Shown here piece after piece: positions 3,262 to 35,100 of a stretch of DNA of 35,977 bases (the stretch's first letter is position 1; every line of letters starts with the position of its first letter). The stretch spans positions 1 through 35,977 of the IMG/VR virus record IMGVR_UViG_3300046007_006885, one strand, 5' to 3'. Below the pieces are notes generated by a model. The model worked only from the letters and a program-made list of their open reading frames with translations. It was not told the DNA's origin and did no database searches. Source of the stretch: a virus. The position numbers were made by a program, and so were the translations under genes.

Positions 3262-3264
3262 CAT

Positions 3265-8438: not shown

Positions 8439-8440
8439 TC

Positions 8441-8992: not shown

Positions 8993-8994
8993 TT

Positions 8995-17186: not shown

Positions 17187-17190
17187 TTGG

Positions 17191-17196
17191 TATTTA
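17191..17196 (-). promoter_or_regulatory. Weak late-type TAAATA motif before the HNH-like gene
   Basis: Minus-strand GGTAAATACC centred here is four bases from the ATG at 17186, a spacing like the leaderless arrangement at 21205-21218. It lies inside the frame of the longer versions of the gene, so it may be chance. Confidence 0.25.
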
Positions 17197-17244
17197 CCCA
17201 TACCTTTGCAAAGGGCAGTCAATTTGACTTTTTTTATCAGTTTC

Positions 17245-20200: not shown

Positions 20201-20533
20201 TTGGTAAACTACTTACGTCAACAACTGAATATCATTGCAAGACCGTTTATTTTTGAACCTAACGATCCTATTACAAGAAATTCAATTTTAGCTGTCGTTA
20301 ACAGTTTATTAAATGATTTAGTTGTAAAACGTGGTATTTCCGATTATCTTGCAGTTTGCGATACCACAAACAATACACCAGAAAGAATTAGCAGAAATGA
20401 ATTATATGTAGACGTAGCAATTCAACCAACTAAGGATGTTGAATTTATTTACATACCAATTAGATTAAAGAACCCCGGCGAAATCCAAGGGGGCAATTTA
20501 GCATCAGCCTCAGCTTTAGGAACAGGAGCATAA
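17279..20533 (+). CDS. 18: Contractile tail sheath protein gp18, enlarged
   Basis: 1084 residues against 659 in T4. The N-terminus (MALVSPGVQVTVIDESNYAP) and the C-terminal ~320 residues (RKAPRGVVVAALKAS, PWLAPAGTRRGLIDN, ARPFIFEPNDPITRNSI, VAIQPTKDVEFIYIPIRL) are the conserved polymerising core. The middle is expanded. At ~233-307 and ~421-520 lie two beta modules resembling flagellin/FliD 'IN' motifs. WLDT / LWLDTSDLENY segments near 134 and ~620, plus LWYYN and LLWNTRT segments, form W-rich repeats. These would project from the outside of the sheath. Good ribosome site upstream; gp19 starts two bases after the stop. Confidence 0.95.
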   Translation: MALVSPGVQVTVIDESNYAPAALGSVAYVLLATAENKLAPGGSSYAAGTLAENAGRIYTITSQRDLITTFGTPIFKTTAGGAAINGDEQNEYGLLAAYSALGVSNRIYVQRADVDLGTLEGTTIRPLANPSNGNLWLDTAGSNWGVYEWNFTTQNWVKKTPNVITSTEYLAGDSFTPNVNFGSIGDYAVNAANAYNPVFYKIYNNTWQLVGNAGWQMGIPSVTGTVTNPVLSTGGTISINGTSIILSGSSNVTVVRDTINSAAVTGIIARIANNQLVISANSAATVSAANIQNVSGTALTDLGITPGAYPAAATSIAPYTSVPSWQGNAFVGKPTGSVWQVATAQRDGMNMIVNEFNSTTNTWDTLTVNGYANIFAATFALDPTGGGINVSQGTVFNQYNPYDNNQLVNYIWQRKSTGPTIITGNTTSPSAANINASFTLTTRANVQLANLSTYTVSIATATVNGFIQAVATAGIPYVSAALSSTGAMTLRHELGGDLLLVDGAGTPLANVGITDSATNVYATPTLGDSALYGTNWEPLEEVTYTPKVTRPYVSPANETLWYYNTPSRVDIMVSNGTAWLGYQNLTNDIRGYNLSNTNESGVILGTEEPTTQDNGDALVYGDLWLDTSDLENYPKLYRYQSVNGLDQWVLIDNTDAVSQNGIIFADARWATSGTTDPALDTIPPITTLLTSNYVDLDAPDPTLYPRGMLLWNTRTSGYNVKEFRTNYFNAAAYPNESLPSQKNTWVSVSGFDVTGVPNFGRKAPRGVVVAALKASIDASTALREDANQFNLIACPGYPELIPNMITLNEDRENTAFIIGDTPMRLVATGTDIQAWATNSLEVTSTGEYGLNTTSPYVGLYYPQGQTNDLDGNAVVVPSSHAVLRAMLKSDNISYPWLAPAGTRRGLIDNLNAIGYIQPTSGQFISIGVTQGLRDVLYTNKINPLTFLPGNGLLVYGQKTLSSTPSALDRINVARLVNYLRQQLNIIARPFIFEPNDPITRNSILAVVNSLLNDLVVKRGISDYLAVCDTTNNTPERISRNELYVDVAIQPTKDVEFIYIPIRLKNPGEIQGGNLASASALGTGA

Positions 20534-20534
20534 T

Positions 20535-21158
20535 ATGGCAGTTTCATCACTAACAAGATTTACAGTACCACTGGGTGGTAATCAAAGTAGTACCACTCAA
20601 GGTCTCTTAATGCCTAAATTGAAATTTAGATTTAGAGCATACTTTGAGAAATTTGGTGCGCCGGGCTCTGCAACCACCGAGCTTACTAAACAATTAATGT
20701 CTTTTGCTAGACCGCAGGTTCAAATGGAACCAATTTCCATTCCGGTCTATAACAGTATGGTTTACATTGCAGGTAGACCTCAATGGCAAGCTAGTCAGGT
20801 TGTTTTACGAGACGATGCTGGTGGTAATGTTTCTAGAATCGTTGGCGAACAATTACAGAAACAATTTGATTTTATGGAACAAGCCAGTGCAAGCAGCGCC
20901 ATTGACTATAAATTTATTTCTACTATTGAAATGCTAGATGGTAATAACGGTGCTACAGACCCGACAGTTTTAGAAAGTTGGCAACTGTACGGCTGTTTCC
21001 TGAGTGATGTTAATTATGGTGATGCCACATATGCTGATAATGAAGCAATGACTATTACCATGACCATTAGATACGACAATGCCATTCAAACAGTTGGAGC
21101 AGGTGTAGGTGCTCCGGGCATTACCCAATTCAATCCAGCAAGTGCAGTAACTGGATAA
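20535..21158 (+). CDS. 19: Tail tube protein gp19
   Basis: 207 residues, T4 gp19 being 163. It carries LLMPKLKFRFRAYFEKFG, then QLMSFARPQVQMEPISIPVYNSMVYIAG, and VLRDDAGGNVSRIVGEQLQKQFDF. WQLYGCFLSDVNYGDATYADNEAMTITMTIRYDNA is the conserved C-terminal strand set of tail tube proteins of contractile phages. It follows gp18 with AGGAG seven bases before the ATG, so sheath and tube are co-transcribed. It is followed by a strong terminator. Confidence 0.92.
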   Translation: MAVSSLTRFTVPLGGNQSSTTQGLLMPKLKFRFRAYFEKFGAPGSATTELTKQLMSFARPQVQMEPISIPVYNSMVYIAGRPQWQASQVVLRDDAGGNVSRIVGEQLQKQFDFMEQASASSAIDYKFISTIEMLDGNNGATDPTVLESWQLYGCFLSDVNYGDATYADNEAMTITMTIRYDNAIQTVGAGVGAPGITQFNPASAVTG

Positions 21159-21175
21159 TACTTAGAAAAAAGACA

Positions 21176-21202
21176 AAGCCTGCTTCGAGCAGGCTTTTTT
21201 TT
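21176..21202 (+). terminator. Strong rho-independent terminator after gp18-gp19
   Basis: An eight-base stem AGCCTGCT / AGCAGGCT with a TCG loop (21177-21195), extendable with A-T pairs, is followed by eight T (to 21202). It lies 17 bases after the gp19 stop and right before a late-type promoter motif. Confidence 0.92.
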
Positions 21203-21204
21203 GA

Positions 21205-21212
21205 GCTAAATA
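21205..21212 (+). promoter_or_regulatory. T4-late-type promoter motif, leaderless spacing
   Basis: GCTAAATA lies three bases after the terminator's T-run and five bases before ATG 21218. With T4 geometry (last A at about -6), +1 falls on the A of the ATG, so the mRNA would be leaderless. No Shine-Dalgarno sequence is present between. Confidence 0.55.
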
Positions 21213-21217
21213 TTTTT

Positions 21218-23572
21218 ATGGCCGCTTTATATAATGCTGGATTAAAACCATTAGGTTCTAACCCCACTCAACCGTATCAACATGCTACAAAATTGTTTTT
21301 AGCAGACAATTTTCGTTTGACCCCAAAGCAATCATTTTTGTATTATGTGGTGATTAATTTTGATCCAGCACTAACACAGGCACAGGGTATATTGGCAAAT
21401 ATTGTGAGTTTTGCTGAAAGATATCAATTCTTCGAAACAGGAATGTTGGTCAAACGTGCAGATTTGCCTAAATTTCAAATTAACACAAAAACTTTAAATG
21501 CCTACAATAGGAAAAATATTCTACATACACAATTAAGTTATGAACCGGTTAGCATCGCATTTCATGATGATGCAGCAGATGTAATAACTAATTTTTGGAA
21601 TGATTATTATACATATTACTTTAGAGACAGTGATTATGATGCAGTTTCTTATAGGCATACAAATCGTTACTCTTTAAGATCTAAAATTGGTTGGGGATTT
21701 AGTCCAAGAAATCAATCCTTGCCTCCTTTATTGAGTAATATAAGAATTTTTAGTTTGCACAATAAACGATTCACTGAATACATGTTAGTAAACCCTGTAA
21801 TAACTTCTTGGCGACATGGTGAAGTAGACAGCAGTGAAGGGACAGGACTGCTAACAAACACAATGCAAGTTAATTATGAAACAGTGAAATATTTTACTGG
21901 ATATGTTGATCCTGTTGCAGTTGACGGATTTACTTTATTACATTACGACAACAGACCAAGTCCACTTGCAACTAGCACATCTAACTTATACTCTAACAGT
22001 GGAATTCTTGGAGTAATAGATGGTGTAGCAAAAGATTTACGAAAACCAGACGGCGCAAATGGAGCAGGTGGTCCATTAAGTAATTTGCTTACTTTATACA
22101 AAACCTATAACAATTTAAAAGGTGTAAACTTCAAAAATGCAGTAGGAGCAAGTTTAGGGCAATTAGGATTAGGTGTTGCAAATCAAGTGCTAAATGGCCG
22201 TAATCCTTTTGCATTCCCAACCACTGCTAGTACTACAACAAGTCAATTATTTTCTAATCCAGCACCTGTAGGAAATAGAGGAATACCTGCAGTGACAGGA
22301 GTAAATGGTGGTAGTTTGGTAATAGGTGCTGCAGCCGGAGCTGGTATAAATTCAGGTCCTAATGTATTAACGCAAGGATTAGCAGCAGTTAACAGAGGAT
22401 TGCAAACTGCTATAGGTGCAGGAGCTAATTTTGTTAGAACTGGGTCAATCTTTGATGCACAACAAACATCAGGCAGGGTAGTTGTCGATCCTAGTACTCT
22501 TAACACACCCACTGGAACAATTACAGGTGTGTTTATCGACGATAATGGTCAAGCAGTGCCAGGATTTACAACATTAGGTACTAAGTCCGGTACATACAAT
22601 CCTAAGAATCCAACAGAAAATTTAGTGTCAGTTCAAACCACTGCAGATGAAGAAGGCAATACTGTAGTAATTAATACATACAAAGACGGTACGCAAGTTA
22701 CAGAAGATGCAGAAGGTAACAGACTGGGAGTCTTTCCTGGAAAAGTACAAAACGCAAATAATATCAACACAAATCCAGTAGACACTAGAACATTAGCTGC
22801 AACTGGTGCCACATTGAGTCAAACCGGTGTGCAATATAGAACTGATCCTAAGACGGGATTGGTTTATACTGTTGGTGGTACAACCACAGCACAGATTACA
22901 AATACTTTGTCGGGCACCGCAGGGGCAGTTGGTGGATTAGTAGCCGGGCAATCGATCAATAGAGCTCTAAATCGAAGTTTCTTGGGGGACAGTGTAATTG
23001 GCAGAACAGTCAGCGCCGCAGTGTCAACTGCAACAGGAGCAGCAATAGGTCGTGCAGTCAATAATGGATTACAACCAATTATAAACACTGCAACTGGAGC
23101 CATTGTTCAAGGTTGGGATAAAGTTGCAGGAGAAGTTAAAAATGTTGTAGGTAGCTGGACTGGTACAGGTGGCTACTCTGCCTCAGAACCTTGGAAAAAT
23201 GTTGTCGGTACCATTGAAGATACTGATCCTATTACTGGTGAAGTATTTGCTGTGACTACGTATAAAGATGGCACACAAGTCACTGAAAATGCAAACGGTG
23301 AGATCGTTGCAACAGTTAAAGGCTCAAACAATTCAGGATTCTTAAATTTCTTTAATAAATCTCCCGGTCAAAATACAGACTCCGTGGCTTCAGGTCCGGG
23401 GGCCGGTAGTTTATTAACCGATGGAAGCGGTAATCCGATTTATACTGGTAGTGGGGATGAATGGAACTACAGTGGCCCCACTGAAGATCCAATGGGTAAC
23501 CCAGCTGATTGGGTCAACGAAGGTCCATCAAATGACAGTTGGTCTGAATGGAATGAATGGGGCAGTGAATAA
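21218..23572 (+). CDS. Large tube-fold virion structural protein, possible tube initiator
   Basis: 784 residues. Residues ~20-135 (ATKLFLADNF, KQSFLYYVVINFD, RADLPKFQINTKTLNAYNRK, LSYEPVSIAFHDD, FWNDYYTYYFRDSDYD) look like the tail-tube fold shared by gp19 and baseplate tube initiators. After ~270 the protein is rich in Gly, Ala, Thr and Asn. It has two glycine-zipper-like stretches (~367-405 and ~560-625) and a duplicated YKDGTQVTE unit near 488 and 682. The acidic, Trp-rich tail ends NEWGSE. It stands alone after the gp19 terminator and overlaps the next gene by one base. A baseplate role is inference; a pilot or tape-like role for the C-terminus is possible. Confidence 0.65.
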   Translation: MAALYNAGLKPLGSNPTQPYQHATKLFLADNFRLTPKQSFLYYVVINFDPALTQAQGILANIVSFAERYQFFETGMLVKRADLPKFQINTKTLNAYNRKNILHTQLSYEPVSIAFHDDAADVITNFWNDYYTYYFRDSDYDAVSYRHTNRYSLRSKIGWGFSPRNQSLPPLLSNIRIFSLHNKRFTEYMLVNPVITSWRHGEVDSSEGTGLLTNTMQVNYETVKYFTGYVDPVAVDGFTLLHYDNRPSPLATSTSNLYSNSGILGVIDGVAKDLRKPDGANGAGGPLSNLLTLYKTYNNLKGVNFKNAVGASLGQLGLGVANQVLNGRNPFAFPTTASTTTSQLFSNPAPVGNRGIPAVTGVNGGSLVIGAAAGAGINSGPNVLTQGLAAVNRGLQTAIGAGANFVRTGSIFDAQQTSGRVVVDPSTLNTPTGTITGVFIDDNGQAVPGFTTLGTKSGTYNPKNPTENLVSVQTTADEEGNTVVINTYKDGTQVTEDAEGNRLGVFPGKVQNANNINTNPVDTRTLAATGATLSQTGVQYRTDPKTGLVYTVGGTTTAQITNTLSGTAGAVGGLVAGQSINRALNRSFLGDSVIGRTVSAAVSTATGAAIGRAVNNGLQPIINTATGAIVQGWDKVAGEVKNVVGSWTGTGGYSASEPWKNVVGTIEDTDPITGEVFAVTTYKDGTQVTENANGEIVATVKGSNNSGFLNFFNKSPGQNTDSVASGPGAGSLLTDGSGNPIYTGSGDEWNYSGPTEDPMGNPADWVNEGPSNDSWSEWNEWGSE

Positions 23573-23940
23573 TGATATTGAATTCTCCTACTAATCTTAA
23601 TACTTCCGGGTTTACAAAAACTACAGCATATTTTAATAATTATTTTTTAGCGCCGTTAGAAATCAGCCAAGAAGTTAATGATTCAATTTTAGGGTATTTT
23701 GAACAACAGACTGGAAATAAAGACAGTGCCAAAATATTAGTACAAACAGTAATCGAAACTGCACAACTTCAAAGAGAAGATCCTTTACAAGTTTTAAATA
23801 AATTTATGAAATTACCGCAAGGCGATTTAAGTGTAATCTTAGCACTGTATTTAAATAATTCAAGAGTCAACACCAGTTATTTAGGAGTCAAGACGGCTCC
23901 TCAAGAAAACAAATATGTAACTCGAACTATTTTATATTAA
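23572..23940 (+). CDS. Conserved small virion-associated protein, 122 aa
   Basis: Pattern FNNYFLAPLEISQEVNDSILGYFEQQTG, then SAKILVQTVIETAQLQREDPLQVL, then LSVILALYLNNSRVNTSYLG and NKYVTRTILY. From memory the same arrangement occurs in uncharacterised proteins of cyanophages and other marine T4-like phages, usually beside tail genes. Mostly helical, no membrane segment. The ATG shares its first base with the last base of the upstream stop, and gp4 starts three bases after its own stop. A structural or assembly role is inferred from context only. Confidence 0.65.
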   Translation: MILNSPTNLNTSGFTKTTAYFNNYFLAPLEISQEVNDSILGYFEQQTGNKDSAKILVQTVIETAQLQREDPLQVLNKFMKLPQGDLSVILALYLNNSRVNTSYLGVKTAPQENKYVTRTILY

Positions 23941-23942
23941 TC

Positions 23943-24380
23943 ATGTCTAAATATAGCCAAGGAAAATATGAGATAGTGAATCCTGCAAAATATGTAGGTC
24001 GTAAGGAGCCTACATATAGATCAAGTTGGGAATTTGCATTTATGAATTTTTGTGATCGGAATCCAGCAGTATTGCACTGGGCTAGTGAAGCTATTCATGT
24101 CAATTACAAAAATCCATTTACAGGAAAAAACACTATATATGTTCCTGATTTTTTAATTGTATATCAAGATAAAAATGGTAAGCAACACGGAGAATTAATA
24201 GAAATTAAACCAACTAATCAAACTGTATTTGAATCGGCAAAGTCTGCAAGGGATAAAGCTGCAGTAGTTCTAAATATGGCAAAATGGCAAGCTGCACAGA
24301 AGTTTTGTGCTGCACAAGGTTTACGATTCAGAGTCGTAAACGAAACAGACATTTTCCATCAAGGAACCAAAAAACGGTAA
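23943..24380 (+). CDS. 4: Head completion protein gp4
   Basis: 145 residues, close to T4 gp4 (150). NPAKYVGRKEPTYRSSWEFAFMNFCDRNPAVLHWASEAIHVNY is the gp4 signature. A PD-(D/E)XK/TnsA-like nuclease core can be read: E30 (SSWE), D69 (YVPDF) and E87-x-K89 (LIEIKP). gp4 acts after packaging to prepare the DNA-filled head for tail joining. It lies directly upstream of the small terminase gene, and its stop codon is part of the next late-type motif. Confidence 0.88.
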   Translation: MSKYSQGKYEIVNPAKYVGRKEPTYRSSWEFAFMNFCDRNPAVLHWASEAIHVNYKNPFTGKNTIYVPDFLIVYQDKNGKQHGELIEIKPTNQTVFESAKSARDKAAVVLNMAKWQAAQKFCAAQGLRFRVVNETDIFHQGTKKR

Positions 24381-24388
24381 ATACCGTT
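24373..24388 (+). promoter_or_regulatory. Late-type motif inside an inverted repeat, before gp16
   Basis: AACGGTA-AA-TACCGTT is a perfect seven-base inverted repeat, and the TAAATA motif (24378-24383) spans its centre. The last A of TAAATA is eight bases before ATG 24392. The gp4 TAA stop is the first half of the motif. No ribosome site follows. Confidence 0.45.
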
Positions 24389-24391
24389 ACT

Positions 24392-24883
24392 ATGACACGT
24401 AAACTCGAAGAACTTTTTAATTTACCAAAAAATTTACCGGAAGAGACTACAGCACTCGAAGCAGTAGAAACTTTTAAAGAAAACGAAACAATATTTAGGG
24501 ATATTGACAGCACCATTGATAAGATAGATGCTGCATTACCTATGGTTCGGGAATTAGATGCCAGTGATCAGGAAATGGATGAATTAGCTACTTTAGCTAA
24601 AGATAGATTTAATGATTTAATGGATCTTGGCATGAATATGGAAGCAAGATTTAGTGGTCAAGTTTTCCAAACTGCAGGGGTACTATTGGGTCATGCTATC
24701 ACTGCCAAACAAGCTAAGTTAGACAAAAAACTACGCATGGTTGATCTTCAATTAAAGAAAATGAGGTTGGATCATCAAATTAAACAAGATGGTGGACAAG
24801 TGGATAGTTCTATTGAAGGCGAGGGTATGGTAGTTGATAGAAATACATTGTTGGCTCAAATATTAAATAAGCCAAAGCAATAA
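24392..24883 (+). CDS. 16: Terminase small subunit gp16
   Basis: 163 residues from ATG 24392, after the inverted-repeat promoter motif; the frame is open upstream into gp4 but that part is out-of-frame overlap. It starts KLEELFNLPKN and is acidic and helical, with DIDSTIDKIDAALPMVRELDASDQEMDELATLAKDRFNDLMDLG, then AGVLLGHAITAKQAKLDKKLRMVDLQLKKMRL, the two-helix central hairpin of gp16. Small terminases ring-assemble and hand DNA to gp17. Unlike T4, it is separated from gp17 by about 5.6 kb. Confidence 0.8.
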   Translation: MTRKLEELFNLPKNLPEETTALEAVETFKENETIFRDIDSTIDKIDAALPMVRELDASDQEMDELATLAKDRFNDLMDLGMNMEARFSGQVFQTAGVLLGHAITAKQAKLDKKLRMVDLQLKKMRLDHQIKQDGGQVDSSIEGEGMVVDRNTLLAQILNKPKQ

Positions 24884-24896
24884 ATTCAATATTTCG

Positions 24897-24904
24897 AATA
24901 AATA
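24897..24904 (+). promoter_or_regulatory. T4-late-type promoter motif for the internal-protein gene run
   Basis: AATAAATA, with its last A 19 bases before ATG 24924. AGGA at 24914-24917 can serve as ribosome site. It would drive the run 24924-29883, in which all following genes are coupled. Confidence 0.6.
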
Positions 24905-24923
24905 TCATATATTAGGAATTAAA

Positions 24924-25544
24924 ATGAAATCGTTTAAAGCTTATCTAACTGAAAGTCATAAAACGTTTGATTTTAGGATTAGACTAGCCTGTGAGCTGCC
25001 TGATGATCTAATGTCTAAAATCAAAACAGTTTTAGAAGCATACAAATTGGATTCTATAACAAAACCAAAAAGATTACCTATTCAAGAAAGTCCAGATTTT
25101 CCTAGTTTAGGCCCAGTTGAAGTGCACTTGATGGATGCTACTTTTCACTACCCATGCAATGACGAACAAGTAAGAACTTTAATGGCAGAGCGTGCGGGAA
25201 TTAATTTAGCATGTATTAAAGTTACTCCAAAAAATAGTCCGTTTGAAGCAACAAGGGATGGCTTAGAGCAAAGTAATATCGGTGGCAAAGCTGGTGAATC
25301 TGTGTTATTGCAAGATAATATGGAACGCGAAAGACCAGGTCCTGGTGGAGAAGCTTTGGTTGGTGATGCAAGGATTCCTAATTTAATTAAAGAATTAGAG
25401 GAAACACGCAAGTACCAATATGAAGCTCCTGAAGGTGGCTCAACTCCGCAAGCAAAAACTACAAACGATTTACCAGTTGGAAAAACAAGTCCCTTAGGTG
25501 GACACAAACCTAAATTACCGCCAGTAGGCCGTGGAAGAAAATAA
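24924..25544 (+). CDS. Putative capsid internal protein with T4-IP-like targeting peptide
   Basis: 206 residues. The first ten residues, MKSFKAYLTE, followed by Ser, closely match the capsid-targeting sequence of T4 internal proteins (MKTYQEFIAE, cut after E10 by prohead protease gp21). Residues ~15-110 form a mixed alpha/beta domain (FRIRLACELPDDLMSKIKTVLEAY, PVEVHLMDATFHYPCNDEQVRTLMAE). After ~120 it is disordered, Gly/Pro-rich and ends in the basic GRGRK. Homologues in marine T4-like phages are known to me only as hypothetical. A late motif precedes it and the coupled genes after it share the Glu-site theme. Inference: a head-interior or prohead core protein. Confidence 0.6.
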   Translation: MKSFKAYLTESHKTFDFRIRLACELPDDLMSKIKTVLEAYKLDSITKPKRLPIQESPDFPSLGPVEVHLMDATFHYPCNDEQVRTLMAERAGINLACIKVTPKNSPFEATRDGLEQSNIGGKAGESVLLQDNMERERPGPGGEALVGDARIPNLIKELEETRKYQYEAPEGGSTPQAKTTNDLPVGKTSPLGGHKPKLPPVGRGRK

Positions 25545-25546
25545 TT

Positions 25547-28500
25547 ATGAGCAACGACATTTACAAAATCCTAAACAATTTTAATAAATTAATCGAGCAA
25601 AAGCCCGAGCCTACTCAGCAGGCTGCTAAACCTAAGACTCAATTACAAGAAAGTATTGAGCAGGTAAATGAAAAGTACATGGGCTTTAAGAAGACTGTGG
25701 CTGCTATTAAGAAAGGTGGTAGCGCAGAAAATCCAGAAGCCGTTGCTGCCAGCATAGGTCGTAAGAAGTATGGAAAAGAAAAGTTCCAAAAAGCCGCTGC
25801 TGCTGGTAAGAAACTTGGTGAGCAGAAAGTAACAGAATCCACAGGTCAATTAAATGATATACAATTTGCGGATGCAATTTGGGAAAGGATTCCAGCACAA
25901 GTCCGTGATCATTACGGGCCCGAGTGGAACAACATGTATAAGAAATTAATTAATGGTGTAATAGTTGGGGAGTTTGATGGAATAAAAACATGGGATGAAG
26001 CCGTAGAGCGATTCTTAGAAAAGCATGACCCATACATGTATGATGAAATTTATGGCAAAAAAGATATAGCAGAAGGCTCAACACGAGATTCTGAATCTCG
26101 TGATAAATCTCCCAAGGATACGTATTGGGCTAAGACTTCCAGTGAGAAATCTCCTGACAACAAATACGGCGATCCAGTTAATACATTCAAGGTCATATAC
26201 AATGGCCGTGTAGTTTTTAAAACTCAGGACAAATATGAATTCAAACGATTTCTAAGAAAGAAAAAAGAGGAAGGTCACAAAGTTATAGCGGAAGGCGAAG
26301 TAGAAGAATCTGGATTGCAAGCCTATTTAGGTAAGAAGAAATATGGTGAGCAAGGTATGAAAGCTCTTCAGAAAGCAGGCCGCGAAGGGGCTAGCAAAGA
26401 AAAAATGGCAATGATACGTGCCAAGCACGACAAAATGGACGAAGAACAATTAGATGAAAAAGCAGTAAGTCGTGCCCAACAGAAATTCATGGGTATGGTA
26501 CATGCTGCAAAAAAAGGTGGTAAACCTGCAAGTCCGGAAGTTGCTAAGGCAGCAAAAGGCATGAGCAAAAAAGCAGCCCGTGATTTTGCAGCAACTAAGC
26601 ACAAAGGTTTACCTCAGCACGTTAGCGAAGCAATTCATCGAGCATTCCAGAATGGCTATACAAAAGAAGAAATCTTAGAAAGTTTAAATGTAATTTTAGA
26701 AAGCGACGCAGATTACTGGCGTGACCTAATGAAAGATGTGCCAAAACAAGGTGCCACTGATCGTGTAATACATAAAGGCCATTACGGTACAGAATATCAA
26801 GGCGACGATGACGAAGATGACGATGGTCAAACTAAGAAAAAGATTGCTAAACCCGAAGGAGAAAAGCGTGGCAGAGGCCGCCCAAAAGGCGTAAAAAATC
26901 GTGTAGTACGTGCCGGTGAAAAGAAAGCTACGTCTACTGGTGAAAAACGTGGTCGTGGTAGACCTGCCGGCAGTAAAAATAAAATGAAGGAAAGTTGGAT
27001 TGCAGAAAACAATCGGATGATTGCTGAAGCTTTTTTACAGTTAGTTGAACGTCAAACTGACAGTCGTTTACCTGCTCCAATGGAGCCTACTTATAAGCGT
27101 GACCCTAAAACAGGTGAATTAGTTCCGGATATAGATTATAAATTAAATCCACATCTAAAACCTGCACCAGCTAAATCTACACCAAGTCCTGCGCCCAAGC
27201 CACAGCAAGGACCAGACAAACGTTCGGAAGTCGATACTGACAAAGAAGTTGCTGAAAGTCAGCCAAACAACACACAGTTTCAGACAGATGTGGATAGAGT
27301 AAAAAATAGTATGTATATGAAACCAGGGGACAGTAACGTCTACAGTAAAGAAAGAGGTCTTGGTCCTAGCATGGCAGCACAACGACTTTCTGATCGAGGT
27401 GTTGATATTCCTGGATTAGTTGGAAATAAAGTTAATCCTGCTACTTTAGATAGTGATATGCGAGAAGATGATATATCAGAAATGATGCGTCTTGCTGGTA
27501 CAGACGAAAAGTTAGACGAAAAAATGATCATTATGCCGGACGGCTCTGTGGAAGATAGAACACTTAAACTTACTCCAGACCAAATAGAAAGAATGAACCA
27601 AAGTTCTCAACAAAGTCAACCAAGTACTCAACCAAGTACGCAACCAAGTACTCAACCACAACCTCAGACTGGAAACAGAGACAACGAAATCAAACCTAAA
27701 TGTCCACCTTTCACTCCCGCATCTAAATGTAATATGGAAGAAGATGAGTTGTCAGAAATGATGCGTCTTGCTGGCATGGAAGGCAAGTTGCATGGAAAAC
27801 AACATAAGTTAGATGTTGATAAAGATGGCGATATTGAAGCTGATGATCTGGCAGATTTACGAGCAGGTGGCAAAAAGGTTAAAGAGAGTCAGCCTGCTCC
27901 ACGGAAACCTCATTTGACATCTGCAGAAATAGTGCAAATTTTATCAGGTGAAAAAACCCAAGCACAGGTAATGGCAGACAGAGAAAAGGCAAATTCAGCG
28001 CCAAGTCAACCTGCTCCGACTTCCGATATGAAAACACAAAATGAAAGTCATTTTAAAGAAGATGACATGGACGAAGGCAACGAATTTTCTGGAGCTTTAG
28101 CCAAAGCCAAGGCATCTGGCGCCAAAGAGTTCGAAGTTGATGGTAAAACATATCCAGTAAAAGAAAGCAAACTTGATGAATGTGGGGACATGGGCCCTAT
28201 GGCAAACGGCATGACAGATCAAGAAGGTCGCATGAACGTTACAACTAACATGAGCACAGATGGTACTAAAAGTGTTACTGTAACTGCAGATGGTGATGCA
28301 GCATTAGAGTTAATGCAGCTTCTTTCTTTAGCAGGTATGAAAGGACAGTCCGGTTCAATGCCAGAAGCTGAAGTTACTGTAGTTCCAATGGAAGAAGCCA
28401 AAGATGATCGATATCATGCCAGCACTACACCTGAGGAAGAAGTAATTCCTTTAGAAACACAACTACAAGGGGGCGACGGCGAAGTTGCTGGAAAAACCAA

Positions 28501-28618
28501 AAAAATGAACAAGCATGGCAGTGCAAGATTCAGTGATAATCCATTGGCAGTGAAAGATGTAGCTGAAAGTATTTCTTTATCATTAATGAAAGAGTACGAA
28601 AGTATAAAGGTACGTTAA
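25547..28618 (+). CDS. Giant modular capsid-interior-like protein with AT-hooks and EF-hand
   Basis: 1023 residues, strongly charged, no membrane segment. In order: a KKYGKEKFQKAAAAGKK module (~70-90) and a related GKKKYGEQGMKAL module (~262-275); a DUF3008-like block SRAQQKFMGMVHAAKKGGK...KHKGLP (~308-358); an acidic DDDEDDDG stretch; two AT-hooks (RGRGRPKG, RGRGRPAG at ~440-476); two SEMMRLAG units (644 and 736) and a related LLSLAGMKG unit; a (QPST)n repeat; a canonical EF-hand loop at 756-767 (DVDKDGDIEADD). Linkers such as VTES, IAEG, VAES, VKES recur and look like prohead-protease sites. Likely a DNA-binding, processed core or ejected protein; this is inference. Confidence 0.6.
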   Translation: MSNDIYKILNNFNKLIEQKPEPTQQAAKPKTQLQESIEQVNEKYMGFKKTVAAIKKGGSAENPEAVAASIGRKKYGKEKFQKAAAAGKKLGEQKVTESTGQLNDIQFADAIWERIPAQVRDHYGPEWNNMYKKLINGVIVGEFDGIKTWDEAVERFLEKHDPYMYDEIYGKKDIAEGSTRDSESRDKSPKDTYWAKTSSEKSPDNKYGDPVNTFKVIYNGRVVFKTQDKYEFKRFLRKKKEEGHKVIAEGEVEESGLQAYLGKKKYGEQGMKALQKAGREGASKEKMAMIRAKHDKMDEEQLDEKAVSRAQQKFMGMVHAAKKGGKPASPEVAKAAKGMSKKAARDFAATKHKGLPQHVSEAIHRAFQNGYTKEEILESLNVILESDADYWRDLMKDVPKQGATDRVIHKGHYGTEYQGDDDEDDDGQTKKKIAKPEGEKRGRGRPKGVKNRVVRAGEKKATSTGEKRGRGRPAGSKNKMKESWIAENNRMIAEAFLQLVERQTDSRLPAPMEPTYKRDPKTGELVPDIDYKLNPHLKPAPAKSTPSPAPKPQQGPDKRSEVDTDKEVAESQPNNTQFQTDVDRVKNSMYMKPGDSNVYSKERGLGPSMAAQRLSDRGVDIPGLVGNKVNPATLDSDMREDDISEMMRLAGTDEKLDEKMIIMPDGSVEDRTLKLTPDQIERMNQSSQQSQPSTQPSTQPSTQPQPQTGNRDNEIKPKCPPFTPASKCNMEEDELSEMMRLAGMEGKLHGKQHKLDVDKDGDIEADDLADLRAGGKKVKESQPAPRKPHLTSAEIVQILSGEKTQAQVMADREKANSAPSQPAPTSDMKTQNESHFKEDDMDEGNEFSGALAKAKASGAKEFEVDGKTYPVKESKLDECGDMGPMANGMTDQEGRMNVTTNMSTDGTKSVTVTADGDAALELMQLLSLAGMKGQSGSMPEAEVTVVPMEEAKDDRYHASTTPEEEVIPLETQLQGGDGEVAGKTKKMNKHGSARFSDNPLAVKDVAESISLSLMKEYESIKVR
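27617..27658 (+). repeat. 12-base tandem repeat (QPST units), 3.5 copies
   Basis: CAACCAAGTACT is repeated three times with one change (T to G at the end of copy two), followed by half a copy. It encodes Gln-Pro-Ser-Thr units within a linker of the giant modular protein. Near-identity at the nucleotide level indicates recent slippage. Confidence 0.9.
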
Positions 28619-29296
28619 ATGAGAATAGCAGACATTATCGTAAACGAAACTATCGCGTTAGGTGATAGTTTTGATATTGAACTAGGCGAAACTGTAATTC
28701 ACACTGGGGTTGTAGATATATTACAAGATGGTGTTCTGCTTGAAGCTGATTTAAAAACTTTAGCACTTTTAAAAATGGCAGGTGCCACATTTGAATCCAA
28801 AGGACAAATGGTTGTTGAGGGCGCAATGAAAGAAGTTAATATGCTGTTTCAAGATTTAGTAAATGGCACTAAGGACATTTATCAAGTAATGACACAGCCT
28901 CAAGACAAAATTGAAAACTACGTTTCTGAAAAATTGCAGGAAATGTATGATGATATTGTGATCGATTATGGCTTACACCCTGACGATGACTTTGAACAGA
29001 TTATTGACATCATTCATAAACAATTAGTAGACGAATACGGTCAAGATGACGTAATGGAAGCAGAATATCAAGGTCGCAAGGTTCAATTAGGTAAACCAAT
29101 GGCAGGTGATGTTAAAAAATCAAAAGTTTACGTCCGTGGTCCTAAAGGAAATGTTGTCAAGGTAAATTTTGGCGACAAGAAGATGAAGATTAAAAAGTCT
29201 AACCCTAAACGTCGTAAATCATTTAGAGCAAGACATAATTGTGATAACCCTGGCCCACGCTGGAAAGCACGTTATTGGTCTTGTAGAGCTTGGTAA
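28619..29296 (+). CDS. Conserved head-interior-like protein with basic Cys/Trp C-terminus
   Basis: 225 residues, starting directly after the upstream stop. The start MRIADIIVNET resembles a cleavable targeting peptide ending in Glu. Residues ~15-65 contain a GDSFDIELGETVIHTGVV module and the middle has VVEG and VMEA candidate sites. The last ~75 residues (YQGRKVQLGKPMAGDVKK, VYVRGPKGNVVKVNFGD, then KSFRARHNCDNPGPRWKAR and YWSCRAW) are a very basic module I recall at the C-terminus of many marine phage proteins. Inference: DNA-contacting protein packaged with the genome. Confidence 0.65.
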   Translation: MRIADIIVNETIALGDSFDIELGETVIHTGVVDILQDGVLLEADLKTLALLKMAGATFESKGQMVVEGAMKEVNMLFQDLVNGTKDIYQVMTQPQDKIENYVSEKLQEMYDDIVIDYGLHPDDDFEQIIDIIHKQLVDEYGQDDVMEAEYQGRKVQLGKPMAGDVKKSKVYVRGPKGNVVKVNFGDKKMKIKKSNPKRRKSFRARHNCDNPGPRWKARYWSCRAW

Positions 29297-29674
29297 ATGA
29301 AAATCAAAGAAGTTATTGTTGAAGGTAGTCCTGCAAAGATCGCTAAAAGACTGCAGCAATCTACTGTAGGTCTTAATCTTTTTCGTGATGCAGAATTTGC
29401 AGATAGGATTTACGAATTAAATCGTGTAATGATGGCTGCAGCTATGGCAGATGGAGAGAACCCTTTAAACATAGATCACGAAAGTTGGGCTGGTAGACAT
29501 GATATTGCTGCACCCTATACTGCCGAGGAGCAAAAGATGCTTCAGCAAGCATTCAAAGCTGTAGGCAGTTGGCACAAAGACCTAAACAACGGCGATCTTA
29601 AAAGTCAGGAACTTGAATCTACATATAAAGTTAGTCCTGTGGCAAAACCTAAAAAAAATAAATTTGGTATATAA
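29297..29674 (+). CDS. Conserved hypothetical, 125 aa, possible internal protein
   Basis: Starts immediately after the upstream stop. The first nine residues MKIKEVIVE, then GSPAK, again look like a short targeting peptide ending at a Glu-Gly site. The body contains RLQQSTVGLNLF, DHESWAGRHDIAAPYTAEEQKML and QAFKAVGSWHKDLNNGDLKSQELESTYKVSPVA. This is a pattern I recall from uncharacterised proteins of T4-like marine phages. It ends in a Lys-rich tail. Function unknown; the neighbours and N-terminus suggest the head interior. Confidence 0.65.
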   Translation: MKIKEVIVEGSPAKIAKRLQQSTVGLNLFRDAEFADRIYELNRVMMAAAMADGENPLNIDHESWAGRHDIAAPYTAEEQKMLQQAFKAVGSWHKDLNNGDLKSQELESTYKVSPVAKPKKNKFGI

Positions 29675-29883
29675 TGGACGATATAGAACAACTTAAATTC
29701 CTGTCAGGTATCAACAATCGACCAAAATGGACTGAATATAAAGGTTATCCCGGTAGCAATATTAGTGTTACAGGAACAGAAACAGCAAAATTAATGCGAG
29801 AACATAATATAAAACCAGGCACCGAGGCCTGGTTTAAACTTTGGTTCAGTAAGCCTTATCTTACAAACGAAAAACCAATTTAA
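29674..29883 (+). CDS. Conserved small hypothetical, 69 aa
   Basis: Its ATG overlaps the upstream TAA by one base. DDIEQLKFLSGIN, then GTETAKLMREHNIKPGTEAWFKLWFSKPYLTNEKP is a compact conserved-looking sequence that I recall from other aquatic myoviruses but cannot assign. It ends by overlapping the convergent HNH gene by 4 bases. It probably belongs to the preceding late transcript. Confidence 0.6.
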   Translation: MDDIEQLKFLSGINNRPKWTEYKGYPGSNISVTGTETAKLMREHNIKPGTEAWFKLWFSKPYLTNEKPI

Positions 29884-30407
29884 TTTGGTGGCTCAATTCC
29901 CAAATATGTATACCAGCTTTTGTGGCGGACTTGGATAGGCCGTTGTTTCCATTTGTTTATTAAATGAAAATGATCTGGCTTAAAAGGTTTACGCATTGGA
30001 TACATATCTGTTCTTGCGCCTTTTTTATGATTGCAAGATTTACATGCAGACACACTGTTTTCCCAAGTTGTTTTGCCGCCTTTACTTCTTGGAATAACAT
30101 GGTCTAATGTCAAATCTTTAGCAGTAAATATTTCACCACAGTATTGACACTGATATAGATCTCTTAAGTACATATTGGATCTGCTGAATTTTGGTGTCTT
30201 TTTAAAATTTAGATACTGTTTAGTCATACAAACGCTGGGAACTTTTATAGCCAATTTTTCACTTCTGATTACCCAATCTTCATATTCCTCGATGATTGTA
30301 ATTCTATCCATGAAATATAAATTAATTGCATGTTTCCATGAGATTACACTCAATGGAAGTACACTAATTGGATTAAAATCCGAATTTAATAGTAGAACGT
30401 CCGACAT
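29880..30407 (-). CDS. HNH endonuclease
   Basis: 175 residues. Zinc pairs CQYC and CKSC flank the HNH core LTLDHVIPRSKGGKTTWENSVSACKSCNHKKG (~107-138), with the H of DHV, N of WEN and a later Asn-His pair. The N-terminal region VLLLNSDFNPISVLPLSVISWKHAINLYFMDR and FSRSNMYLRDLYQCQYCG match a bacterial/phage HNH family of about 190 residues. It is inverted directly upstream of the terminase and has its own sigma70-type promoter. It may be a free-standing homing-type enzyme or act in packaging, as HNH proteins near terminases do in other phages. Confidence 0.9.
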   Translation of the reverse strand: MSDVLLLNSDFNPISVLPLSVISWKHAINLYFMDRITIIEEYEDWVIRSEKLAIKVPSVCMTKQYLNFKKTPKFSRSNMYLRDLYQCQYCGEIFTAKDLTLDHVIPRSKGGKTTWENSVSACKSCNHKKGARTDMYPMRKPFKPDHFHLINKWKQRPIQVRHKSWYTYLGIEPPN

Positions 30408-30433
30408 TTTGATATACTCAAAAAAAGAAATTT

Positions 30434-30462
30434 ATTATACGATAATTTTAAATATTAATCAA
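30434..30462 (-). promoter_or_regulatory. Sigma70-type promoter for the HNH gene, TTGATT-17-TATAAT
   Basis: On the minus strand TTGATT (30462-30457), a 17-base spacer and a perfect TATAAT (30439-30434) precede the HNH ATG at 30407 by about 27 bases. No ribosome site is seen in the short leader. Confidence 0.65.
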
Positions 30463-30498
30463 TCTATTTTCGAATAGTTAAATTTAATCGAATTTTGA

Positions 30499-30506
30499 CT
30501 TAAATA
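30499..30506 (+). promoter_or_regulatory. T4-late-type promoter motif for terminase gp17
   Basis: CTTAAATA, with TAAATA ending 18 bases before ATG 30525. It is divergent from the sigma70-type promoter for the HNH gene, which repeats the early/late pairing at 13538-13580. The leader is A/T-only with no GGAG. Confidence 0.5.
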
Positions 30507-30524
30507 CAATAAAATATTTATTTT

Positions 30525-32090
30525 ATGAAACCTTTGTCTGAAACCGTTTTAATCAAAAAACCAAATACTAAAGAGACTTTTACAGAAAGTCAACTACGTG
30601 AGGTTATTAAATGTGCAGATCCTGTTTCTGGGCCTGCCCATTTTCTCTCAAACTATTTTTATATTCAACATCCTACTAGAGGTAGGATGCAATATGAGCC
30701 TTTTGAATATCAAGAACGTTTAGTAGAAACTTATCATAATTATAGATACAGTATAAGTTTAATGCCCAGGCAAACTGGCAAGAGCACAACTGCTGCAGGA
30801 TATTTACTTTGGTATGCTATGTTTGTTCCGGACAGCACAATTTTAGTGGCTGCACACAAATATACAGGCAGTCAGGAAATTATGCAGCGTATTAGATACG
30901 GATACGAAAGTGTTCCAAATTTTATCCGGGCAGGTGTAACAAGTTATAACAAAGGCAGTATAGATTTTGATAATGGATCTAGAATAGTCAGTGCTACAAC
31001 TACTGAAAATACGGGACGGGGTATGAGTATTTCGTTGCTTTATTGTGATGAGTTTGCTTTCGTAAGACCTACAATAGCAAAGGAATTTTGGACTTCTATT
31101 AGCCCAACTTTGGCCACTGGTGGTAAATGTATTATTACAAGCACCCCGAACAGTGATGAAGATCAGTTTGCACAAATTTGGCGGCAAGCCAATAAACGTA
31201 TAGATGAATATGGCAATGAAACAGAATTAGGCATTAATGGATTTAAACCATTTCGTAGTTATTGGAAAGAACATCCGGATAGAGACGAAAAGTGGGAAGC
31301 AGAACAACGTGCGCAATTAGGTGAAGAACGCTTCCGTCGTGAAATGGATTGTGAATTCATTATCTATGATGAGACGCTGATTAATCCTATTATGTTAACG
31401 GAACTTGCTGGCATAGATCCTATACAAAAACAAGGACAGGTAAGATGGTACAAACAACCCAAAAAAGGCAATATATATCTAGTAGGATTAGATCCTAGTT
31501 TAGGAACAGGCGGGGATCCTGCGGCAATACAGGTTCTCGAACTGCCAAGTATGCACCAAGTAGCGGAATGGCAGCATAATCGCACGCCTATACAACAACA
31601 AGTAAAAATTTTAAGTGAAATAACAAAATATATTTCAGAAGAAATAGATACCATTACAGATGTATATTTTAGTGTAGAAAATAACACAATTGGTGAAGCA
31701 GCATTAATTACTATTTCGGAATTTGGAGAAGAAAACTTTAAAGGTATTTTTTTAAGTGAACCCAAACGGGCAGGGCAGGCAAGGGCCTATAGAAAAGGAT
31801 TTAACACAACAAATAAATCTAAACTGGCAGCGTGTGCGAAGTTTAAAAATTTAGTCGAAACTAAAAAATTACATATTGCCAGTAAATCATTAGTTAGTGA
31901 ATTAAAAACTTTTGTAGCATCTAATAACAGCTATGCGGCCAAGCTGGGAGAGACTGATGACCTAGTAATGGCTATGTTATTAGTAGTTAGAATGGCAATA
32001 TTTCTTAGAGAATATGACAGTAATTTAGACGAAAAATTAAAAGATTCGTCGGATGAAATCATCATGCCCATGCCTTTTATTATGATGTAA
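30525..32090 (+). CDS. 17: Terminase large subunit gp17
   Basis: 521 residues, T4 gp17 being 610. The ATPase has Walker A RQTGKST at 82-88 (K86) and Walker B LLYCDE with D175 and E176, followed by the coupling motif TSTP. The RNase H-like nuclease has D323 (GLDPSLGTGGD), E385 (FSVENN) and D478/D479 (GETDDLVMAM). All motor and nuclease residues are present. It drives headful packaging with gp16. The short N-terminus lacks the longer T4 extension. A giant modular gene with its own promoter motif follows 31 bases later. Confidence 0.96.
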   Translation: MKPLSETVLIKKPNTKETFTESQLREVIKCADPVSGPAHFLSNYFYIQHPTRGRMQYEPFEYQERLVETYHNYRYSISLMPRQTGKSTTAAGYLLWYAMFVPDSTILVAAHKYTGSQEIMQRIRYGYESVPNFIRAGVTSYNKGSIDFDNGSRIVSATTTENTGRGMSISLLYCDEFAFVRPTIAKEFWTSISPTLATGGKCIITSTPNSDEDQFAQIWRQANKRIDEYGNETELGINGFKPFRSYWKEHPDRDEKWEAEQRAQLGEERFRREMDCEFIIYDETLINPIMLTELAGIDPIQKQGQVRWYKQPKKGNIYLVGLDPSLGTGGDPAAIQVLELPSMHQVAEWQHNRTPIQQQVKILSEITKYISEEIDTITDVYFSVENNTIGEAALITISEFGEENFKGIFLSEPKRAGQARAYRKGFNTTNKSKLAACAKFKNLVETKKLHIASKSLVSELKTFVASNNSYAAKLGETDDLVMAMLLVVRMAIFLREYDSNLDEKLKDSSDEIIMPMPFIMM

Positions 32091-32121: not shown

Positions 32122-35100
32122 ATGAGAAATATTGACCAAACTGCATCTGGATTATTTGACAAGTTACGCAATCGTTTTAGTCCGGTTGCTATACGTGATG
32201 AAAAACGTGAAAGCACACTGGATCCTGCTAAAGCAAGATTTTTTAGCTTTGATTATGCTGCTAACGGTAAAAACTTTGGTTCTATTACTATCAGTGTATT
32301 GGGTAAGGATTTAAAAGTTTTCTATGCTCAAGACTTAGACCAGTTCATGACACCAATTGAAAAAAAGCAGTGGTTCAAGTTTTTAAAAGAATTACGATTT
32401 TTTGCAATGGCGGAAGGTGCAGTATTTGATGTTAGAGATATTGGAAAAAGTGGATTAAATTTACGTGATTTAAAATACCTGAATAAAGATTCAGAAGTGT
32501 ATTCCAAAGATGAAGTCAATGTTAATGAATCTAAATTGTATGGCACACGTCGCAGCAGTTATCAACAATTAGAAGATGTGCGTATCATTGCACGCCATAG
32601 TAAACCCATAGTAGACGAAACTATTCCTGGTGCAAGAAGTCGAAATGTTGAATCGTTCTACATCGAGAATTCCCAAGGTGAAAGATTTAAACTTCCCGAA
32701 GGCACTACTATTAACGGTGCAAGAGCTTACGCAAGACATGTAAAAAATGGCGGACAACTGCACGACGACTTTTCCCAGCATATAGGACGAATGATTAAAG
32801 AGATGGCCGACCTTCGCATGTTTGTTCGCAACATGCGCGGTAGAACATTTGAAGACATTGAAACTCAGCAAATGGTAGAAAGTGCCATAGATCATTACGG
32901 CAGATTGCATAGTGATTTACATCTAATTCGCAGTCAGCGCGGTTACGATCAATATCGAGAATTATGGCAACCAGAAGTGTTGGAAGAAACTGAATTTGAT
33001 CTGACTGAATTGAGAGAACGGTTTGTAAGAAAAGTATTCGATGATAGAATTACTAATGCTTTGCCAGTTGTATTTAGAGAGTATCATCGTCGTAAAATGG
33101 CCACAGAACAGGAATTCGAATCTTGGGCGAATGATATAGTAAGAGAGTTTGAGGAAAATCCCACAGATAAGGACAATAAAAAACAAGCAATGGATGCAGA
33201 AGATATAGAAGAAGATTCTGCAGATATAAATGTTAAAAGTCCTTTTGCTAACAGTTTACAAAATGTTGAGCGTGACAGTGCAGAGAACATAGTAGATGAC
33301 AATGAAAATCAAAATCTTGCTGGACTTTTAAATGAAAAAGGTTTTGAGTTTAAATTTGAAGATGGTGTTTACTACTTTGAAAGCAAAGACGAAATAGAAC
33401 GTGCTAAAGACTGGATCAGCCTAAAATTTCCTAAAATGAAATTCCCAAAGATGGGAGTTTACGATTATGGCTATGGAGTTTATGGTAGCACTACGTTTGA
33501 TAGAGAATTACCCGGCGGTAAGGGGGTAATGGAGCAAAAAAAAAGACAGCAAGAATTAACTGAAAATCTGCGCAAATGGTTTAAAGAAAAATGGGTGCGA
33601 TTTGGACCTGACGGAAAAATTCGCGGTGACTGTGCTCGAGGTGATAGCAGTGAAGGCAAGCCAAAATGTTTACCACAAGCTAAAGCACATGCACTAGGCA
33701 AGAAAGGCCGTGCCAGTGCAGCTCGGAGAAAGCGCAGAGAAGATCCTAATGCAGAACGAACAGGCGCAGCAATTAATGTTAAAACAAAAAAAGAATCTAT
33801 AAACGAAGTAAGTAAAGAACTATTAAAAAAGTATATTAAAGCTAATGTTCAAGATCAACTACTTCGATCTACCAGTGACAGTTTTAAATCGGGCCGTGCA
33901 GGTGATCAGTATAATAAGGCCCCTTTCGATACCCCAGTTGATCGAAAAAGAGAACGAGGACTAGATCGTGCACTGAATAGATTATCAGGAAGAATGAACG
34001 AAGGCCAGCATGATCAAGCAGCAGAAGAATATAGAGCACATCTAATAAAAACATTGCCCGGTTTAATGCAGTTATTTAAAAGAGTTTTAGATCCGAAAAA
34101 AGGATGGCAACCTTCTGAAGAACAAATGATGGCGGCTATCGAAACTGCATACACTGTAATGAAACATACAGGAGATATCAAAAAGGCCGGGCAGGCACTA
34201 GTGGATGAATTGAATACTCTGCACAGAATAAGCCAGGGTCAGCAAGGTTTGGCGGAAAATTATTACAGTGATTTGATGAAGCAAACTTATGCAAAATTCT
34301 TCAAGCCTGCTCCTCCTAAAACAGTATCAGCAGTAAAGAAGTTTTTATCTGGTGTAATGATATCATTAGGAACTGCTCAAGATACTGACTATGACGAAGA
34401 AGAACCAGAAGAAATAAATTGGAAGCAAGATCTTTCTGATGTTAGAGAAGCGTATGATAAACTACGCAGTAATAATTCTCCAAATTGGTTTGATCTTGCA
34501 GATACAGTCTTTAGTTACGATACAGAATTTAGAGAAAGTATGCTAGAGTGGGCAGAAGAAGAGTTAGGTAGTAAATTAGTTGACATACTATGGCACGAAG
34601 TATGGCAAGCTAAACAGCAAATCTCAAGAGCAGGTGGATCACATAATGTAGGTTCAGGTCAAAAAGTGCCACCCCATAAACCTTACGATCCAGAAAAATA
34701 TAAACCCGATTCACCGCGCAACATTGAATGGCAAGTAATGATCAACGGTGAGCCAATGATAAAGTTTGGTGGGGTCAGTAATAAAGAGGCGGCTATGAAA
34801 ACCGGATTAAGTTGGGCTCGCAATCATGGCTACGAGCGTGAAGTACAAGCAGGTAAAGTTGAAGTGGCGCAAGTCCAGCAAGGTGTGGCGGAAGATTCAT
34901 TAAATGAATTTGCTACTGGTGACGGCCAGGGTGGAAATGGACCTCTAGACTACGGCAATGCTATCATCGAAATCGGCCAAGATTATGTTGAGATGTATAA
35001 CGATGAAGGCGACGGGGCTGATGCTGCCAAGATCATCAAAGTTGGTCAAACATTTATATCATCAGGAATGGCAGCAGGTATCAAAGCATTTTATGCCATG

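Follow-up and report, generated by a model that had tools for sequence, protein, structure and literature searches.

Predicted capsid-targeting tags and protease-released modules on head-region proteins of an uncultivated T4-like phage

IMG/VR record IMGVR_UViG_3300046007_006885 is a 35,977-base fragment, analysed here over its full length (the window), that carries T4-like tail sheath, tail tube, head-closure, and terminase genes and appears to come from an uncultivated giant relative of phage T4. Its terminase is nearest among isolates to those of Pseudomonas phage PA5oct and its relatives (55.9% identity), followed by Sinorhizobium phage Phosso (51.5%) and Agrobacterium phage Atu_ph07 (49.9%), and a megablast comparison of positions 20000 to 32000 with phage isolates gives 0 matches. 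Three genes, named here by their first base as 24924, 28619, and 29297, begin with a peptide that starts MK or MR and ends in hydrophobic-x-Glu at residue 9 or 10, as an earlier note on this DNA had pointed out: MKSFKAYLTE↓SHK, MRIADIIVNE↓TIA, and MKIKEVIVE↓GSP, respectively (arrows mark putative cuts). These peptides, referred to as tags, are candidate capsid-targeting sequences (CTSs) of the type known from T4 internal proteins (IPs), and they lie among other genes with putative sites for a gp21-type head protease. The features are as follows.

24924 to 24953, plus strand: tag MKSFKAYLTE (10 codons) with the cut predicted to follow Glu10; positions 2, 4, 7, 8, and 10 conserved in 31 aligned proteins
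24924 to 25544, plus strand: tagged protein of 206 amino acids (aa), with an AlphaFold model; homologue of PA5oct gp282
25547 to 28618, plus strand: putative untagged modular precursor ("polyprotein") of 1023 aa with 19 hydrophobic-x-Glu↓small sites
26486 to 26629, plus strand: DUF3008-like basic module of 25547 ending HVSE↓, residues 314 to 361 (Pfam match at 306 to 359, 22.7 bits, cut-off 24)
26870 to 26971, plus strand: two GRGRPxG stretches followed by MKE↓S
27482 to 27502, plus strand: "LAG box" MMRLAGT in 25547, like the C terminus of the gp22 scaffold
27758 to 27778, plus strand: "LAG box" MMRLAGM in 25547
28619 to 28648, plus strand: tag MRIADIIVNE with the cut predicted to follow Glu10; the tag ends in Glu in 17/17 aligned proteins
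28649 to 29059, plus strand: acidic middle of 28619, residues 11 to 147, net charge -22; acidic in 17/17 aligned proteins
29060 to 29293, plus strand: basic 78-residue module AEYQGRKV...YWSCRAW, charge +20, predicted to be freed by a cut at E147↓A148
29297 to 29323, plus strand: tag MKIKEVIVE, predicted cut after Glu9; M1 invariant and E9 in at least 90% of 23 aligned proteins
29297 to 29674, plus strand: tagged protein of 125 aa, C terminus ...KVSPVAKPKKNKFGI, in the same alignment of 23 proteins
29674 to 29883, plus strand: small protein whose N-terminal part has a variant of the LAG box, LKFLSGI (29692 to 29712); 46/55 family members have the stricter motif
32122 to 35640, plus strand: second large modular protein, after the terminase, with 11 sites and a match to PHROG 13484, "virion structural protein"

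The three tagged genes are not in a row, as the earlier note had described them: the first is separated from the second by the 1023-aa gene 25547, which starts MSNDIYKIL and is untagged. The likeness drawn to T4 IPI, IPII, and IPIII holds for the latter two, which open MKTYQEFIAE↓A, but not for IPI, which opens MKTFKEFTSTTTPVSTITE (translated here), and the tags of 28619 and 29297 are nearer to the N terminus of T4 gp24, MAKINELLRE↓S, than to the IP tag. Three of the 37 window genes fit a pattern of MK or MR, a hydrophobic residue at P3 (third before the cut), and Glu at residue 9 or 10; shuffles of the window genes give a mean of 0.46 and reach three in 0.77% of cases, or in 10% if the MK/MR condition is removed. 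Because this pattern was picked after the peptides had been seen, the window alone is only suggestive.

The wider sample comprises 142 loci plus the window, some of the loci overlapping, in which 1988 genes were called, in the relatives with a codon-score caller (a caller based on open reading frame [ORF] length had missed one tagged gene); dropping genes that share at least two body 7-mers leaves 860 non-redundant genes. There are 194 MK/MR starters among these, and 42 of them have hydrophobic-x-Glu ending at residue 9 or 10, compared with 7.5 expected and a maximum of 22 in 2000 shuffles, many of the 42 being distant relatives of each other and thus not 42 independent events. The motif ends at residue 9 in 30 and at residue 10 in 12, over a background of about 3, with smaller peaks at residues 8 and 13, and a further Glu peak at residue 5 (25 genes) comes from MKIxE, the first half of the second type of tag. 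At residues 9 to 10, counts for Asp, Gln, Lys, Asn, Ser, and Ala range from 0 to 7 (Ser has 14 at residue 8), and genes of this set that do not start with MK or MR have no Glu peak at residues 9 to 10. The same tag also occurs on unrelated bodies, as is characteristic of a CTS; 177 tagged genes form 22 body families by single linkage, the largest with 103 and 46 members, of which the 103-member family mixes 28619-like and 29297-like proteins, and some small families may be chance.

Alignment of homologue N termini, a check that the earlier note had proposed, was carried out for the 24924 family. In 31 proteins, window included, the tag is conserved at K2 (1.00), F4 (0.97), Y7 (0.90), L8 (0.81), and E10 (0.94, or 29/31), and is variable at positions 3 (0.42), 5 (0.32), 6 (0.23), and 9 (0.39). 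The conserved positions are those that T4 IPIII mutants show to be critical; according to PMC9026906, targeting acts mainly via residues 4 and 7 and processing via 8 and 10, and IPIII with Asp10 is blocked in processing with targeting kept. Exceptions to L/I-x-E at residues 8 to 10 are PA5oct, Phosso, and locus L037, and the PA5oct and Phosso homologues retain the aromatic residues of the tag, a pattern that would be expected if targeting and cutting are separable. As read from this alignment, the assignment of the 24924 N terminus as a putative T4-type CTS is well supported. The AlphaFold model predicts a tag helix, an alpha/beta domain at about residues 15 to 102, and a disordered tail; Foldseek matches of the model are marginal (best E value 9.7e-4, with query TM-scores of at most 0.33 among the 50 matches listed), are to ribosomal S6-like and other alpha/beta folds, and were not used to assign a function. 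No PHROG or Pfam family is matched by 24924 or 29297, and a search of phage isolates with 29297 gives no match at an E value of 0.01.

The tags of 28619 and 29297, which are of the MKI type, lack aromatic residues at positions 4 and 7 and fit a CTS only by analogy to gp24. Among the 17 aligned members of the 28619 family, 10 have MKT/MKN-type tags (for example, MKTLKDYLTE) and seven have MKI-type tags (for example, MKIRDVIVE), counting with the latter the window MRIADIIVNE and MKLGEVIVE of L027. The tag type thus swaps while the homologous body is kept, and the tag behaves as an exchangeable part. Two further proteins of G001, a 338-kb relative, are also tagged, namely a putative amidoligase with MKLYDLFTE↓S (L106, 11192 to 13039) and a DUF6321 protein with MKVNDVITE↓VSLG (L015, 12933 to 14318), hinting at packaged enzymes.

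Protein 28619 has a putative second site, at which E147 and A148 are invariant in 17/17 aligned proteins although the preceding linker is unalignable. The charge is split at this site in all 17 (-11 to -40 before it and +14 to +24 after it), and P3 is Leu, Ile, Val, or Met in 15. The basic module that follows is present in 27 isolate records and recurs in phages of Pelagibacter, Roseobacter, Flavobacterium, and Methylophilales; 16 of these records were inspected. In the four isolates that bear a match to the S77 (gp21-type) protease, the module is preceded in each case by a putative site (C48C1 LTE↓A, HTVC008M LEE↓A, immuto 3-5A LDE↓G, and Melnitz-3 MME↓S), whereas 10 of the 12 isolates without an S77 match start a stand-alone module gene with Met at the place of the cut (M↓A), Aegir/Kolga and CRP-901/902 being near-twins among the 10. 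The predicted cut would therefore regenerate the stand-alone N terminus, and this coincidence is the strongest single argument that the second site is a real one. The module probably binds DNA. Database matches of 28619 are limited to unnamed PHROGs and a sub-threshold Pfam match, and a Foldseek search with its model gives nothing below an E value of 0.4. A related arrangement is seen in Melnitz-3 protein 18 (L155, 2342 to 4294), which starts MKKFSEIIE↓A and ends with MME↓S and the basic module, the part in between resembling a nucleotidyltransferase by eye; it is a possible case of an enzyme packaged within one precursor.

Sites of the same form are abundant in 25547, where hydrophobic-x-Glu followed by a small residue occurs 19 times (5.2 expected) and hydrophobic-x-Glu-Ser 10 times (1.07 expected), neither count being reached in 500 shuffles, with a search pattern that was chosen after looking. 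All 37 distinct proteins that match 25547, window included, have more sites than expected; in 30 no more than 5 of 200 shuffles reach the observed count, and in the other seven 6 to 18 do. These relatives differ widely in length and module content, and BLAST alignments among 131 modular proteins have 1621 starts, of which 139 fall on hydrophobic-x-Glu↓small against a background of 23, boundaries being shared by descent among related proteins so that the counts are not independent; starts on hydrophobic-x-Asp, -Lys, or -Gln are not above background. Single modules can be followed from one context to another. A VSLG module begins after the tag in L015 (ITE↓VSLG) and after internal sites in L018 (LAE↓VSLG) and L008 (LPE↓VSLG), and the 25547-type genes of L023 and L024 incorporate the 28619 domain at joints, INE↓S and LNE↓T, that lie where the tag would end, L024 also having LDE↓A before the basic module. 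Searches with three further modules match only the window or its twin record L001, which also encodes an identical 24924 protein. Pfam matches of 25547 are three and all sub-threshold (DUF3008, SACK1, and Poly_export, with E values up to 0.1), and we take its GRGRPxG stretches to be AT-hook-like. The second large modular protein, 32122, has 11 sites (6.0 expected; 18 of 500 shuffles reach 11) and no Pfam match, and basic pieces start directly after LTE↓ at its residues 481 and 1110.

The T4 gp21 cleavage motif is L/I-x-E (PMC9026906), and matches to S77 (PF03420, gp21) and to gp23 occur in the same four of eight longer relatives, S77 being found also in PA5oct and Phosso. The S77 search of isolates is shown to work by positives in T4 and six other phages, although a record without a match may still hold the protease. 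Judged by eye, the genes around the protease in the relatives are arranged as annotated in PA5oct and CBB, namely portal, two core proteins, protease, gp22, and major head protein. In the gp22 proteins of four relatives, 18 hydrophobic-x-Glu positions are kept in all, and 12 of these have Ala, Ser, Asn, Gly, or Thr as the next residue in three or more of the four; in gp23 of three relatives five positions are kept, four of them near the N terminus and followed by Ser, Gly, or Asn. These putative gp22 and gp23 sites thus share the hydrophobic-x-Glu↓small pattern with the tags, with E147↓A148, and with the sites of 25547, as would be expected of substrates of one protease.

A second shared motif is the LAG box, which was defined after being seen. 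The gp22 C terminus is LKRLAGL or similar in 11/11 copies (from four relatives, with redundant loci) and LRRLAGIK in PA5oct, while gp22 of CBB and of T4 have different C termini. The box occurs in 46/55 members of the 29674 family, in 39/86 of the 32122 family (35 at the C terminus), in 8/41 of the 25547 family, and in two of three genes assigned jointly to 25547 and another family; elsewhere it is found in 7/1492 unassigned genes and in 0/300 genes of seven other families, and the 32122 protein of the window has none at its C terminus. We propose that the LAG box may dock untagged proteins to the core or shell.

PA5oct provides a link to virions. Its genes are ordered tail tube, head closure (gp284), gp283, gp282, gp281, terminase (gp280), gp279, and gp278, among which gp282 is a homologue of 24924 (A2 profile score 82.6 bits; E value 1.7e-26 for nine sequences) and gp278 one of 32122 (114 bits), and gp281 takes the gene position of 25547 and has 7 sites (2.6 expected) and LAG boxes. 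Feature notes in the PA5oct record annotate gp282, gp281, gp279, and gp278 as detected by electrospray ionization tandem mass spectrometry (ESI-MS/MS), the gp22 homologue gp330 being without this flag, and the small protein gp333, which adjoins the portal and starts MKINDIITE↓G, is likewise annotated. The presence of PA5oct homologues of 24924 and 32122 in virions is thus supported by database annotation. Together, the conservation of the tags, the gp22 and gp23 sites, the S77 matches in relatives, and this annotation give good sequence support to the capsid targeting and gp21-type cleavage that the earlier note had put forward. The note had not mentioned the untagged gene 25547 or the second site of 28619, which we consider the richest part of this locus.

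Other features of the window lie outside this group. For the gene at 24284 to 24883 the longest ORF overlaps the head-closure gene, and the real start is likely an internal ATG giving MTRKLEELFNL, which resembles MTKRLEEVFDF of PA5oct gp283 and MTKRIEEVLDL of Phosso 404. HNH endonuclease genes, possibly coding for homing endonucleases, are present on the minus strand beside the terminase (29880 to 30407) and beside the tail sheath (16836 to 17222). The tail sheath (17279 to 20533) is very long at 1084 aa, and both it and the tail-tube-like protein (21218 to 23572, 784 aa) contain long low-complexity-looking stretches. Positions 1180 to 10118 hold a block of genes that look by eye like those for glycosyltransferases, nucleotide-sugar epimerases, and oxygenases.

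In the mechanism we propose, the N-terminal 9 to 10 residues would dock a protein onto the scaffold core during head building and a gp21-like S77 protease would then cut after the tag Glu, the body staying inside the shell. The same protease would cut inside 28619 at E147↓A148, at many sites of 25547, and probably in 32122. In 28619 the cut would part the acidic piece from the basic module, the precursor having remained near neutral until maturation; the module would be freed as DNA is packaged, and such small DNA-binding proteins would probably travel with the viral genome. That 24924, 28619, and 29297 are tagged prohead-core proteins cut by the protease, with charge-masked modules released by it, is in our judgement likely. 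The fuller proposal, in which genome-binding basic proteins are made as charge-masked precursors and as a modular polyprotein and are freed by the head protease at packaging, with the sites serving as joints for module swapping, fusion, and re-tagging and the LAG box as a second docking signal for untagged members, is offered tentatively, and we give it slightly less than even credence.

A number of observations weigh against this interpretation. Cleavage, DNA binding, and the timing of release are what we infer, and no cut has been observed; the 36-kb fragment itself has no protease match. Position 10 of the 24924 tag is Ala in PA5oct gp282 (MKSFRDYYDA), Ser in Phosso 408 (MKNFYEYLSS), and Asp in L037, so cutting is not universal in this family, and mature 24924 and 29297 are near neutral in charge, which does not suggest DNA binding and means that these bodies need another role. 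P3 of the second site is Thr or Tyr in 2/17 proteins, and the fusion in L023 likewise breaks the P3 rule with TLE↓A before the basic module. Among the isolates, CRP-3 and HTVC106P start M↓A but have a divergent N terminus, CRP-6 has LEE ahead of a module start that aligns poorly, although it is among the isolates with no S77 match, and CRP-2 carries an unrelated 14-residue extension. Six of the 18 gp22 positions mainly precede Glu, Asp, Leu, or Phe, so not every hydrophobic-x-Glu is a likely site, and alignment starts are also raised on non-hydrophobic-x-Glu (50, against 25.5) and on hydrophobic-x-Glu followed by other residues (54, against 22). A cruder gene caller gave two tagged genes in G002 and four in G003 compared with 17 in G001. 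Finally, 25547 is untagged, which leaves its route into the head unexplained, and PA5oct gp281 has no detectable homology to it (best E value 0.74).

This last point bears on a different reading, in which 25547 and 28619 are scaffold-like core proteins, shredded and expelled as T4 gp22 is, with any fragments idle in the virion. The same dense ladder of sites in gp22 and the recurrence of its C-terminal LAG box in the 25547, 29674, and 32122 families speak for it, as does the fact that no virion evidence exists here for 25547 or 28619 themselves, and the lack of detectable homology between gp281 and 25547 counts somewhat in its favour over the released-module proposal. It is nonetheless rather unlikely, since PA5oct gp278 and gp281, the latter in the position of 25547, carry the ESI-MS/MS flag and gp330 does not, and since other phages encode the basic module as a gene by itself, so that it should have its own function. 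It is quite improbable that the tags serve for targeting alone, with processing incidental or lost and the proteins acting intact as structural components inside the head: PA5oct gp282, which keeps aromatic residues at 4 and 7 without Glu10 and is annotated by ESI-MS/MS, would fit such a role, as would the Glu-less Phosso homologue and the targeting of unprocessed Asp10 IPIII (PMC9026906), but Glu10 is kept almost throughout the 24924 family, the tag-end Glu and E147↓A148 are invariant in the 28619 family, and extra sites are enriched in 25547.

Injection of the packaged proteins as counter-defence effectors, like T4 IPI, which blocks a restriction enzyme, seems improbable to the same degree. 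Its support is the T4 precedent only, along with the large differences in length and modules among 25547 relatives; the tagged bodies match no named family above cut-off in PHROGs or Pfam, a PADLOC search, which covers defence systems and not counter-defence, finds nothing in four proteins, and the 28619 module spans phages of four host groups, unlike a narrow arms-race protein. Chance occurrence of short amphipathic N termini ending in hydrophobic-x-Glu agrees with a window count only modestly above shuffles (0.8% or 10%, depending on the MK/MR condition), but is very hard to reconcile with the positional peaks in the 860 genes (42 against 7.5) and with conservation at the positions critical in T4, and we regard it as extremely improbable. 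Two more readings, that the peptides are signal peptides and that the proteins belong to the tail, were set aside.

Several known systems resemble parts of this arrangement. The 24924 tag shares with the CTS of T4 IPII and IPIII a ten-residue form with an MK start, aromatic residues at 4 and 7, an aliphatic residue at 8, and Glu10; unlike in T4, there are two tag types here, one family has a second internal site, and the bodies belong to no named family, PHROG and Pfam family searches revealing no homology of the mature bodies to IPI, IPII, or IPIII. The gp24 N terminus resembles MKI-type tags such as MKINEIITE and MKIKEVIVE, but the tags here are on small proteins that by sequence are not shell subunits. 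The T4 core proteins gp22, gp67, and gp68, which gp21 cuts into multiple fragments (PMC9026906), have many L/I-x-E sites, as here, whereas 25547 and its relatives consist of basic and acidic modules that are exchangeable and have their boundaries at the sites. The prohead proteases of SPN3US and phiKZ cut several head proteins after Glu, with a preference for Ser at P1' in SPN3US, where 13/14 mapped sites remove N-terminal propeptides at A-x-E; here, the internal site splits an acidic from a basic part. Polyvalent proteins, as PMC5512222 presents them, are late proteins of several domains for which packaging is predicted, P1 DdrB being processed beforehand, and emphasis is placed on enzymatic and self-cutting peptidase domains; none is matched here, and Pfam reveals no set of enzymatic or effector domains in 32122 or 25547. 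Within a limited open-access literature that includes PMC3012670, PMC10052503, PMC5694885, PMC9026906, and PMC5512222, a modular precursor of this kind is not described. Two ideas are raised by the comparison, namely that the protease unmasks DNA-binding modules and that a scaffold-like motif serves for docking, and exact mature N termini can be predicted from the sequence. The paradigm of a targeting tag and a gp21 cut was established for the head of T4, and the sequences described here suggest that in T4-like phages from uncultivated and marine sources the proteins inside the head form a larger set.

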